From Chitinophaga pinensis (lineage in GTDB: Bacteria; Bacteroidota; Bacteroidia; B-17B0; Aurantibacillaceae), in contig CAMAPT010000015.1 of assembly GCA_945860225.1 (NCBI GenBank), positions 1-64,000 of the forward strand: a stretch of DNA of 64,000 nucleotides, given 5' to 3'. The notes below the pieces were generated by a model, which was not told the origin of the DNA, did no database searches, and saw nothing but the letters and a program-made list of their open reading frames with translations. Positions 18,528 through 46,960 of the stretch are shown in pieces. A program made the position numbers and the translations under genes. Position 1 is the stretch's first letter. The number at the start of each line of letters is the position of its first letter.

Positions 18528-19091
18528 TCATCTTTCTATATCAATATCGTACTTGTCTAAAAGTCCCGAAATGCCTGAAATTGAAAATTTTGCTTTCTTA
18601 ATCCGGTTAATTTCAGGGTCAATTGAATAATTGAAAGAAGTTCGAAAGTCCGTTTTTTCAAGAATTGTGTGGTCAAAAATGGCTTGTGTTAAATTGCAGT
18701 CGTCAAACACCGAACTTGTTAAGTCTGCTTCTGCAAAGTCCACTTCTTCTAACTGCGAATTTTTGAAAACAGTTTTTTTGATTTTTGTCTTATAAAACGA
18801 AGAAAGGTTTAGTTGGCATCCGTCAAACGAAACAGAAAGTCCGAATTCATGACAAGTATCAAACCGAAGTCCTAACATTTTGCAGTCTTTGAATTTGACG
18901 TCCCGAAATGCTGTCTTGTTGAGCTTAGCTAAACTGAAATTACAACCATTAAATGTGCAGTCTATAAATTTAAATTCAGAAATGTCGCTGTCAGCAAAGT
19001 TACAATTGTTGAAAATACAGTTTTCGTATTCGCCTTTCGTCAGCGTGTCGTTTCGGTCAAACTTTTTGTCTTGTATGTATATTTCTGTCAT
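18528..19091 (-). CDS. pentapeptide-repeat protein, Qnr-like
   Basis: A 187-aa protein made almost wholly of pentapeptide units (A/C-D/N-F/L-x-x), for example CIFNNCNFADSDISEFKFID and VDFAEADLTSSVFDDCNL. The C-terminal part, FNYSIDPEINRIKKAKFS, matches the closing segment of Qnr-type DNA-gyrase-protecting proteins and ends in the helix GLLDKYDI. The fold is a right-handed quadrilateral beta-helix that can mimic DNA. Protection of gyrase is plausible but unproven. The gene sits in an accessory island beside hipBA, preceded by an attC-like palindrome. Confidence 0.8.
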   Translation of the reverse strand: MTEIYIQDKKFDRNDTLTKGEYENCIFNNCNFADSDISEFKFIDCTFNGCNFSLAKLNKTAFRDVKFKDCKMLGLRFDTCHEFGLSVSFDGCQLNLSSFYKTKIKKTVFKNSQLEEVDFAEADLTSSVFDDCNLTQAIFDHTILEKTDFRTSFNYSIDPEINRIKKAKFSISGISGLLDKYDIDIER

Positions 19092-43564: not shown

Positions 43565-44572
43565 ATGGAATTAAAAAAAGAAATTATTGATAGGATACAT
43601 CAACTCGAAGAAAAATATAGTCTGATGGGGCAAAGCCTCGACAGTTATTTGGATGGATTACTTCTTTCCAATTACCTGACCTATTGGGATTATATTCAAG
43701 TTGACACATTATTAACTCTTCAAAATCCTAAAACGGATTTTCCGGACGAGAAGATTTTTATCATGTATCATCAAATTACTGAATTATACTTCAAGCTTTC
43801 TTTGCACGAAATGGAGCAAATAGGAAATAATGGAGTCCATATTCAACCTAATGGCCATGTTTTGGGTTTTAAAGAAGCCATTGATGTTAATTTTTTTGCA
43901 GAACGTATTACCCGTATCAACCGTTACTTTGAATCTTTAACCAAGTCATTCGAAATTATGGTGGATGGTATGGAAAAAGAGCAGTTTTTACGATACAGAA
44001 TGGCATTGTTACCGGCCAGTGGGTTTCAAAGCGCACAATACCGTAAAATAGAAATTTGTGCGACCGATTTTTTTAATTTAGTTGATAAAGATGTAAGGCC
44101 CACTTTGGCGGGTAAAAATGCGAGCATTGAGGAAATGTTTGAGCACATTTATTGGAACAAAGGCGCTACAGAATTAGCTACCGGAAAAAAAACCTTGACG
44201 CTCAACCAATTTGAGAAAAAGTATGGAGCAGAGTTTATGGCATTGGCTAAAGAATACGAGCAAAAAAATATGTGGGCCAAGTACAAATCACTTTCGGCAC
44301 ACGACCAACAAAATCCAAAATTAATTAATGCCTTAAAAGAATTAGACGTCAATGTAAATATCAATTGGCCTTTAATGCATTACAAGAGTGCGGTAAGGTA
44401 TTTGCAACAAAATACCGAAGATATTGCGGCAACTGGCGGAACCAATTGGCAAAAATATTTACCGCCTCGTTTTCAAAAACGTATTTTTTATCCCGAATTA
44501 TGGACTGCACAAGAGCACGACGATTGGGGTAAAGGCTGGGTTGAAACCAATGTGTTTAGAGCCGGGAGATAG
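43565..44572 (+). CDS. tryptophan 2,3-dioxygenase family protein
   Basis: A 335-aa heme dioxygenase-like protein that would open the indole ring of tryptophan to N-formylkynurenine. Family motifs include WDYIQVDTLL, the distal His in IFIMYHQITELYFKLSLHE (H69), PASGFQSAQYRKIE near 149-162 and, near the C-terminus, MHYKSAVRY with the heme-proximal His and ATGGTNWQKYLP. It is longer than typical TDO (about 280 aa). No kynurenine pathway genes are adjacent, so pathway context is missing. Confidence 0.87.
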   Translation: MELKKEIIDRIHQLEEKYSLMGQSLDSYLDGLLLSNYLTYWDYIQVDTLLTLQNPKTDFPDEKIFIMYHQITELYFKLSLHEMEQIGNNGVHIQPNGHVLGFKEAIDVNFFAERITRINRYFESLTKSFEIMVDGMEKEQFLRYRMALLPASGFQSAQYRKIEICATDFFNLVDKDVRPTLAGKNASIEEMFEHIYWNKGATELATGKKTLTLNQFEKKYGAEFMALAKEYEQKNMWAKYKSLSAHDQQNPKLINALKELDVNVNINWPLMHYKSAVRYLQQNTEDIAATGGTNWQKYLPPRFQKRIFYPELWTAQEHDDWGKGWVETNVFRAGR

Positions 44573-45274: not shown

Positions 45275-46960
45275 ATGCTTAACGGACAATTACACGATGA
45301 TTATTTGCTGCGCTATTCGGTTGAAATGGAGCAAGATTTCTCTACTTTAACAAATACTGCCACAGTTACATTTTATGATGAGCACCAGCGTAAAGTAAGC
45401 CGAATCCATCTAGCCGTAGTTAGTAAAGAAACCATATATGATTGGATAAAAAACAATCAGCCTATTCATTTACAAGCCTGTTATGTAAAAGATTTTTCTC
45501 TTTCGGAGTTTCGTAAGTTGCAAAATTTAAAAGAGGATGAGTTGGTTACTTTGCACGACTTAAAGGCAATTCATACTTTTTTTGATGGCGAATCGACCAT
45601 TGATTTTAGTTGTTCGGTTTTCGAAGGGAAACAGACCATTTTTGATCATAGTGTTTTTGGAAATGGATATACTAATTTTTCATATTCTGATTTTGGCCAC
45701 GGCCATGTATCATTTAAGCATAGCAAGTTTGGAAGCGGGGCCACTAATTTTCAGTCGGTTCGGTTTGGAGATGGCGATATTTCGTTTGAAGAAACCAATT
45801 TTGGGAATGGTAATTTAAGTTTTGCTGACGCTCATTTTAGCAATGGTCATGTGCATTTCAAAAACACACTTTTCGGAAACGGTCACATCGATTTTAAATT
45901 TGCCAAATTTGCATTAGGTGATATTTCTTTTGAGCGAGCTACATTTGGGGTAGGAAAGAAAGACTTTAAAAAAGTAGAGTTCGGAGGAGGCCGCATTGAT
46001 TTTAGGCGAGTAGAATTTAATGATGGCGATGTGTTGTTTGAAGGCGTTGAATTTGGTAATGGTAAAATCAATTTTAGGGGATCGGTATTTGGAAAAGGGC
46101 ATGTAGGATTTGAATACGCTGATTTTGCAAATGGAGAGGCCATTTTTGATTATGTAGATTTTGGGACAGGTAATTTGAGTTTTTACCAAGCCAAAGCAGC
46201 CCATATTTCTTTTAGAAATTGTCCTTTTAACTGTTACATTGATTTGCGATTTAAAGCTTGTAAAATTGCCAATTTGAGTAATGCTGTTATTCGCGATATA
46301 GTTGATATAAAACCAGAACGCGACCATGTTCATATCAGAGAGCTTAACATAACCGATACGCGTATTTTAGGTCGTTTATTCATTAATTGGCGAGAAAATG
46401 AGGTTTTTCATTTAATTTATAACCAGAAAAAAAGCAGCCATTTTCAAAAAGCAGAACAATTCAGAATACTCAAAGAAAATTTCAGGGTAAATGGTCAGTA
46501 CGAAGATGAAGATGCGGCTTACATCGAATTTAAACGCTGCGAAGCAAAGGCACTTTTAGAAGAAGAAAAAAAATCGACGTTTATCGTCAAACTATGCGCA
46601 TACCCAAAGTATGCGTTTCAAAATTATGTGTTTGATTTTGTTGGCCGATACGCTACAGCGCCTACTCGCGTATTGCTGAATGCGGTATTGGCCGTATGTA
46701 TGTTTGGATTAGTTTATTACGGTTTTACGGTTGGTTTAAAAACATTTGGAACCATAGAAACCACTTTACCAAACCACTTGAATCATGTTCAGGAATTTTG
46801 GAATTGCATGTACTATAGCGCTATTACTTTTTTTACCATTGGATATGGAGATTATTTTCCATACGGTATTTTAAAGGCCGTAGCCGCTTTCGAAGGCTTT
46901 TCAGGGGTATTTTTAATGAGTTATTTTACAGTAGCTTTTGTCAGGAAAATTTTAAGATAG
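45275..46960 (+). CDS. K+-channel-like protein with a 12-residue-repeat solenoid
   Basis: A 561-aa protein in three parts. Residues 1-115 are a mixed N-terminal domain ending in a degenerate repeat. Residues 116-307 are sixteen gap-free 12-residue units, F-x-x-G-x-x-x-F-x-x-x-x, where Phe recurs at positions 1 and 8 and Gly at 4 in nearly every unit (for example FGDGDISFEETN, FGNGHIDFKFAK). This should form a narrow beta-solenoid with a Phe-lined core. After a linker with coiled-coil character (HFQKAEQFRILKENF), two membrane helices flank a pore loop with the selectivity filter TIGYGD (521-526), typical of K+ channels. Pentapeptide-repeat channels are known in bacteria; this 12-residue form I do not recognise. 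Confidence 0.85.
   Translation: MLNGQLHDDYLLRYSVEMEQDFSTLTNTATVTFYDEHQRKVSRIHLAVVSKETIYDWIKNNQPIHLQACYVKDFSLSEFRKLQNLKEDELVTLHDLKAIHTFFDGESTIDFSCSVFEGKQTIFDHSVFGNGYTNFSYSDFGHGHVSFKHSKFGSGATNFQSVRFGDGDISFEETNFGNGNLSFADAHFSNGHVHFKNTLFGNGHIDFKFAKFALGDISFERATFGVGKKDFKKVEFGGGRIDFRRVEFNDGDVLFEGVEFGNGKINFRGSVFGKGHVGFEYADFANGEAIFDYVDFGTGNLSFYQAKAAHISFRNCPFNCYIDLRFKACKIANLSNAVIRDIVDIKPERDHVHIRELNITDTRILGRLFINWRENEVFHLIYNQKKSSHFQKAEQFRILKENFRVNGQYEDEDAAYIEFKRCEAKALLEEEKKSTFIVKLCAYPKYAFQNYVFDFVGRYATAPTRVLLNAVLAVCMFGLVYYGFTVGLKTFGTIETTLPNHLNHVQEFWNCMYYSAITFFTIGYGDYFPYGILKAVAAFEGFSGVFLMSYFTVAFVRKILR
45620..46195 (+). repeat. sixteen 36-bp coding repeats (12-residue units)
   Basis: Sixteen consecutive 36-base units encode residues 116-307 of the channel-like protein. 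The protein pattern is strict but the DNA copies differ widely at synonymous positions, so the array is old and held by selection on the protein rather than being a recent expansion. Confidence 0.9.

Follow-up and report, generated by a model that had tools for sequence, protein, structure and literature searches.

Organization of the gene

What does a strictly periodic, Phe-rich repeat array do when it is joined to the pore of a potassium channel, and to which kind of repeat does it belong? The question is raised by an open reading frame located at 45275-46960 on the forward strand of the window, the whole stretch of 64,000 nucleotides that was analysed. It starts with an ATG, backed by a Met in the same column in 35/35 ortholog rows, and codes for a protein of 561 aa. 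As the original prediction had described, sixteen gap-free units of 12 residues (residues 116-307), with Phe at positions 1 and 8 in 16/16 units and Gly at position 4 in 15/16, lie ahead of a two-helix pore with a TIGYGD filter. The parts of the gene, all on the forward strand, are listed below, together with the evidence used for each of them (AF2, AlphaFold2).

45275..46960, +: whole gene, 2TM potassium channel with an N-terminal beta-solenoid (ORF, Pfam, 34 other full-length orthologs, alignment)
45275..45556, +: N-terminal beta-meander/helix domain entering the solenoid, residues 1-94 (AF2 secondary structure)
45620..46195, +: sixteen 12-residue units, residues 116-307, predicted to form a right-handed beta-helix of some eight coils with 24 residues each (sequence, AF2, structural alignment)
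45836..46051, +: units 7-12, residues 188-259, candidate binding surface (conservation; exposure assumed from pentapeptide geometry)
46196..46384, +: irregular solenoid end in which strands go on, residues 308-370 (AF2)
46439..46570, +: helical hairpin, residues 389-432 (alignment, AF2, conservation)
46580..46642, +: helix before TM1, residues 436-456 (AF2)
46661..46735, +: TM1, predicted helix, residues 463-487 (AF2; membrane role suggested by the Ion_trans_2 match, aligned from 488)
46787..46852, +: pore helix and selectivity filter, residues 505-526, with TIGYGD at 521-526 (sequence, Pfam, AF2, alignment)
46871..46957, +: TM2 and C-terminal end VAFVRKILR, residues 533-561 (alignment, AF2, conservation)

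The Pfam model Ion_trans_2 (PF07885) matches residues 488-559 with 43.8 bits (cutoff 22.5), which places the protein in this family, and the same model matches all of the order-level (35/35) and class-level (22/22) relatives, five rows being common to the two sets. Predicted helices at 463-487 and 533-560 flank the filter in the AF2 model. A T[IV]GYG filter is found in 35/35 rows of the ortholog alignment, one of which reads GYGE, and the class set has 18 rows with GYG and 4 with GFG. Homology marks the pore as one of the K+ type, and the architecture is established at the level of the sequence. Pfam recognized no known sensor domain in the protein and no match at E<=1 in residues 1-94. The hairpin has the consensus EQFRILKENFR.NGQYEDEDAAY.EFKRCEAKA, and the helix that follows it (436-456) is possibly an interfacial, slide-like one. 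The channel has no C-terminal domain, the chain stopping just past TM2, so that any cytoplasmic regulation would have to enter from the N-terminal side.

Two further Ion_trans_2 places occur in the same genome. The window also codes for a second pentapeptide-repeat protein, ordinary-looking, of 187 aa and without a pore (18528-19091, -).

The 12-residue unit and its relation to pentapeptide repeats

Chance was rejected as the source of the periodicity: the longest run of F(x6)F motifs spaced by 12 comprises 16 of them, and none of 10,000 shuffled versions of the protein gave a run of more than 3. Positions 6 and 11 of the unit hold mostly small or beta-branched residues, and no Cys occurs at any of the 12 positions in the sixteen units. 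The mean pairwise identity between units is 36% for the protein and 50% for the DNA; given this divergence and the collinearity of the orthologs, a recent expansion of the array was rejected as well. Unit similarity within the array (45620-46195) peaks weakly at lag 3, that is 36 residues (z 2.2 vs. shuffled unit order), a period not explained by a 24-residue coil.

By one definition (PMC8145042), a pentapeptide-repeat protein has eight or more five-residue repeats in unbroken succession; the Phe spacing of the array, which alternates between 5 and 7, does not agree with it. The residue classes of the 2019 pentapeptide consensus (PMC7337050) fit register 6-10 of the unit in 67/80 cells and register 11-3 in 53/80, vs. 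15-36 of 80 cells for the remaining ten registers; in the second face, position i+1 (mostly Gly) falls outside its class in 15/16 units. From these fits, the unit looks like one pentapeptide (6-10) followed by one with two extra residues (11-5).

The Pfam pentapeptide models give a graded picture. In the window protein itself no pentapeptide cutoff is reached: Pentapeptide_3 (PF13576; cutoff 27 bits) has no match at E<=1 and Pentapeptide_4 scores 17.9 bits, below its cutoff of 38. One of the six orthologs scanned alone (L022) exceeds the Pentapeptide_3 cutoff with 41.6 bits, and this model matches 4/35 order-level relatives (E<=0.1) and 8/22 class-level ones (E<=0.001), as well as other arrays of 11- and 12-residue units. 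The claim that these are not ordinary pentapeptide repeats is right, but the register fit and the Pentapeptide_3 matches in some orthologs point to kinship. A single model covering both the units and the pore, named in advance as a finding that would count against the original prediction, was not found; Pentapeptide_3 and Ion_trans_2 are separate models.

Predicted fold and coil width

AF2 was run as a monomer on 35 related sequences. The full model has a mean pLDDT of 87.3, with values of 86-96 for ten-residue blocks across the array. As whole-model structural matches were weak, the array was also folded alone with its ends (residues 95-352, 35 rows), giving a pLDDT of 93.4 and a pTM of 0.88. 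A Phe-rich solenoid ahead of a K+-type pore had been anticipated, with structure prediction of the tetramer as one proposed check, and the monomer model is indeed a confidently predicted solenoid.

Its coil width can be read from the predicted strands. The self-agreement of the strand string is highest at lag 24 (0.863 in both the array-alone and the full model), compared with 0.66 and 0.77, respectively, at lag 12; at lag 20 it falls to 0.384 and 0.372, values that do not fit a coil of 20 residues, the width (4 x 5) of the ordinary pentapeptide-repeat fold. Strand patterns mostly differ between odd and even units, as expected if each coil takes up two units and the array makes about eight coils. 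Sequence covariation has a weak peak near separation 24 (Neff 27) and is not decisive between 12 and 24.

In structural alignments (VIA-align) of the array model, HetL (3du1) comes first with a Z of 18.8 and an rmsd of 2.8 over 217 residues. The Sf6 tailspike is level with it (Z 18.6, 248 residues), and further tailspikes, several lyases and an ABC-transporter partner come close behind. Tailspikes and lyases, which are unrelated right-handed beta-helices, reach Z values of 16-18.6, as high as the pentapeptide proteins, and the matches as a whole, which extend over 196-252 residues, belong to the wide, right-handed type of beta-helix. The top Foldseek rows for the array model are a synthetic beta-solenoid, AlbG, EfsQnr, QnrB1 and MfpA (E 6.6e-5 to about 2e-3), the superpositions on pentapeptide proteins being poor (TM-scores <0.5, rmsd mostly 7-14). 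With the whole model, Foldseek placed QnrB1 first at a weak E of 6.8e-3, in the company of channels and beta-helix enzymes; a second structural search was filled by tailspikes and lyases.

Taken as a model, the array looks like a stretched pentapeptide-type beta-helix with faces of 5 and 7 residues, and its coil looks like two 12-residue units (24 residues), repeated about eight times; the coil number is taken from the periodicity of the strands and from structural alignment, the handedness and coil shape from structural alignments. The narrow, two-sided solenoid put forward originally, with one 12-residue unit per coil and a likeness to the insect antifreeze proteins, agrees with the exact sequence period, with the constancy of the Phe and Gly positions across units, with the lag-12 agreement of 0.77 in the full model and with a covariation signal that does not choose between 12 and 24. 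The best strand period of 24, the mostly different strand assignments of odd and even units and the wide right-handed helices among the structural matches all speak for the broader coil. The insect 12-residue antifreeze solenoids have Cys bridges and a Thr-Cys-Thr ice face, and the sixteen units are without Cys. The narrow form is quite improbable. The absence of insect antifreeze structures among the structural matches listed is evidence neither for nor against it.

Distribution and conservation

Out of 87 genomes of the window's family (equivalent here to its order), 39 matched at 1e-5: 35 at full length, including the window, two as fragments at contig ends and two over the pore region only. 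The 35 full-length rows make up alignment A1, in which no indel occurs at residues 104-320. A draw of 395 genomes from the class, searched with the ortholog alignment at a threshold of 1e-15, yielded 27 matching genomes, namely the window, two of its family, 23 covering at least residues 25-562 and one with a fragment. The 23 full-length relatives come from eight other families; 17 of them, representing all eight, were combined with five A1 rows into a class set of 22 rows. Identity to the window protein drops to 39% in this set, in which the array measures 190-192 residues in 22/22 rows. Per row, Phe at position 8 is present in 15-16 units, Phe at position 1 in 13-16 and Gly at position 4 in 10-15. 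The distribution across Bacteroidota, which the original prediction had proposed to check, includes full-length channels in 35/87 family genomes and, elsewhere in the class, in 23 genomes from eight families.

A draw of 395 genomes from the phylum, searched with a single sequence as query, gave matches in 7 other genomes, over residues 443-561 only, and no full-length relative outside the window genome. Set beside the class search, this outcome points to a patchy family, as seen by searches of unequal sensitivity. At the phylum level, the C-terminal module was found in 4 other genomes of 394. An apparently decayed copy lies at G507:C19:19125-19526 (-), a 131-residue fragment covering residues 432-562 only, with eight stop codons.

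Seven ortholog pairs were compared for substitution rates. The only one with a dS <1 (L024/L027) has an array dS of 0.30 and a dN/dS of 0.078, the array dS of the other six being >1.1 or saturated with an array dN of 0.04-0.13. Over the seven pairs, dN is 0.02-0.13 for the array and 0.01-0.22 for the pore, the array value lying below that of the pore in 4/7 pairs and above it in 3/7. Averaged across the 35 rows, conservation reaches 0.77 in the array, 0.84 in the hairpin (389-432), 0.90 in TM2 and 0.62 in residues 1-95; the TM2 end (533-561) is the best-conserved segment compared and residues 1-95 the lowest before TM1. The array is under long-term purifying selection and fixed in length, which bears out the view of an old, selected array with diverged copies, the dN/dS value coming from one pair.

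Within the array, conservation of the presumed exposed positions is highest in units 7-12. The observed block is reached in 209 of 20,000 unit-order shuffles, a modest signal from a statistic that does not correct for shared ancestry. Among the positions kept in >=97% of the 35 rows, units 7-12 include D206, K208, F209, D230, K232, D242, D252 and G257.

Genomic context

No conserved neighbour was found, the most-shared nearby gene being present in 6/18 sources (17 loci and the window) and, with short flanks, in 5/47 loci; hence no partner or signal can be named from the context. Within its own genus, the channel gene occurs in 1/20 genomes. Two places upstream, at 43565-44569, lies a gene which we take to be tryptophan-dioxygenase-like and which has near full-length matches of 81-93% in 15/19 other genus genomes, and the gene next downstream of the channel has matches of 68-81% in 16/19. 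With both nearby genes kept in most of these genomes, the contig fits the genus, and contamination was rejected. Among the matches listed, the two genes lie on different contigs in the genus genomes, which left no empty site to be defined. The closest relative found (76%) belongs to a different genus, and the gene tree pairs the window channel with a genus g3 sequence (100/100) and does not hold genera g3 and g8 together. The 1/20 presence and the tree make it likely that the gene was gained by transfer or repeatedly lost.

Related channels and arrays

The original prediction knew of no other case of this repeat class joined to a pore. Such a fusion is not unique: apart from the relatives in eight other families, a plasmid protein of Salinibaculum sp. 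KK48 (WP_302083717.1, P0004), annotated as 'pentapeptide repeat-containing protein', matches Pentapeptide_3 (8e-49) and Ion_trans_2 (27.5 bits, cutoff 22.5). Like the window channel, it has long Phe-centred units, then a linker and a 2TM pore. It differs in its units of 11 residues (gaps of 5 and 6, vs. 12 with gaps of 5 and 7), its archaeal origin, its N-terminal part, its filter (TIGYGN) and its C-terminal end.

A protein of Halalkalicoccus jeotgali (WP_081461395.1, P0002) shares the succession of pentapeptide domain, linker and 2TM K+ pore, as well as a chain that ends after TM2, with 24-27% identity to the window protein over the shared part; its repeats are ordinary ones of 5/10 residues, unlike the 12 of the window protein. 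The virus-derived phrog_15350, a family of unknown function, spans 9-522 of the 522 residues of this protein (L044 1201-2766; 2.8e-121). It matches the whole window protein at 5.7e-10 (aligned 145-557), a score that comes from the C-terminal part, as this part alone gives 9.8e-11 and the array alone no match.

The 12-residue spacing itself (F-F gaps of 5 and 7) recurs in a Streptomyces plasmid protein (WP_328741277.1, P0001; Pentapeptide_3 7.6e-45), whose units are far more alike than those of the window protein and which has hydrophobic N-terminal segments instead of a pore, Pfam finding no channel pore in it. In total, 73 plasmid records matched the window protein, 65 of them from Streptomyces and none over >80% of the query. 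Related pentapeptide channels are present on haloarchaeal plasmids, and proteins of Aeromonas and of Bacteroidota combine shorter, ordinary pentapeptide regions with a pore. A 320-aa ORF with pentapeptide and Ion_trans_2 regions (L065 2383-3345), absent from the existing gene table, occurs in a 4.9-Mb record of Aeromonas caviae that is catalogued as a plasmid and is probably a chromosome.

The haloarchaeal, Aeromonas and Bacteroidota relatives follow a common plan: a repeat domain, a helical linker, a 2TM pore and an end near TM2. In an alignment of 12 C-terminal modules, three of them from orthologs, the pore is clear and the hairpin loosely alike, with 21-26% identity over the module; a basic tail directly follows TM2 in 7/9 non-ortholog rows. 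The hhalign alignment with L037 begins at residue 446, past the hairpin. Judged from their sequences, these proteins may be variants of a single modular channel type whose beta-helices differ in width; because repeats can converge, the arrays of the window protein and of the other channels need not be orthologous.

Proposed mechanism and rival explanations

On balance, we regard the protein as probably a 2TM K+ channel that is regulated via its N-terminal beta-helix and the conserved hairpin leading into TM1. The suggestion that a part ahead of the pore could gate it finds such a part in place, and the gating itself we infer. As is usual for 2TM channels, the N-terminus would be cytoplasmic and four subunits would make up each pore, with the solenoid rod probably inside the cell. 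Residues 116-307 would wind into about eight coils of a beta-helix, right-handed and roughly quadrilateral, with four Phe-centred faces per coil that alternate between 5 and 7 residues, after which the chain would pass through the hairpin (389-432), a further helix, TM1, the pore loop and TM2, and end. The trigger could be a partner or ligand that binds the conserved face in the middle of the solenoid (units 7-12), or a shift between the four solenoids; it would move the hairpin and the pre-TM1 helix, and the pore would open or close. By analogy with HetL-HetR (PMC7476756), a binding site would most plausibly lie on the conserved face that units 7-12 present. More tentatively, the channel may possibly stand for a distinct gating class, in which a fixed-length, eight-coil N-terminal beta-helix serves as sensor or lever and is hairpin-coupled to TM1 in a protein without a C-terminal domain, haloarchaeal and bacterial relatives following this plan with the coil widened from 20 to 22 to 24 residues.

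The main rival is a scaffold-only solenoid: the K+ path would be constitutive or driven by membrane potential, and the rod would be a rigid support for assembly, anchoring or the holding of a partner. It accords with the lack of a conserved neighbour and of a Pfam sensor domain, and a fixed-length rod suits a spacer. The clearest pentapeptide functions are also binding ones, such as SV2C acting as a receptor (PMC8145042) and HetL-HetR (PMC7476756). The hairpin leading into TM1 is, however, together with TM2, the best-conserved part, which suggests mechanical coupling, and the presumed exposed positions of units 7-12 are kept beyond what a spacer needs; we therefore hold this alternative to be rather unlikely.

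Improbable, too, is an effector carried by a phage, plasmid or island, in the form of a channel that would depolarise the cell, for instance in defence or conflict. The gene's presence in a single genome of its genus, near two genus-typical genes, and its strongly supported junction with a g3 sequence would suit such an origin, as would phrog_15350, which spans a whole pentapeptide-K+ channel, and the plasmid location of haloarchaeal relatives. The long-term constraint and the full-length copies in 35/87 family genomes speak against it, as do the lack of conserved neighbours, mobile or other, and the searches of mobile elements, in which neither the window protein nor WP_302083717.1 matched phage records, nor the ortholog alignment viral contigs, at the sensitivities used. 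A defence system was rejected, as PADLOC gave no match. Least probable of all, to the point of being very doubtful, is an MfpA/Qnr-type DNA mimic tethered to the membrane. It could appeal to the Foldseek matches with MfpA, QnrB1, EfsQnr and AlbG, but fold likeness proves no function, and it was rejected on the net charge of the 192-residue array, only -7 to +1 with a mean of -3.6 (35 rows).

Comparison with known systems

Databases already contain this repeat class and the general fusion, in the form of separate Pfam domains and of annotated proteins. Among the open-access literature matches listed, none is a paper on a pentapeptide-repeat K+ channel, and none describes a fixed-length 12-residue array fused to a pore in nine families of one class. 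In a recent review of K+ channel modularity, a term search finds none of the words pentapeptide, solenoid and beta-helix (PMC12332018).

The fixed array length in nine families and the 5+5, 5+6 and 5+7 series on similar channels would show how a beta-helix can be widened. Most of the abundant pentapeptide-type proteins have no known function; a solenoid fused to a domain that is measurable as a current makes the role of the solenoid testable. HetL, the first structural match of the array, has 20-residue coils and is a soluble, single-domain protein without a pore; it binds HetR mainly via one face of its beta-helix (PMC7476756).

As for the pore, profile similarity to solved channels is highest for TOK (7.1e-5) and Kir7.1 (1.6e-4) and weaker for MthK (about 0.06), the similarity lying in the two-helix pore and its filter. 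In Kir and MthK, regulatory domains come after TM2. The window channel, unlike these two, has nothing there; if its solenoid gates the pore, it would be a K+ channel controlled wholly from the N-terminal side.
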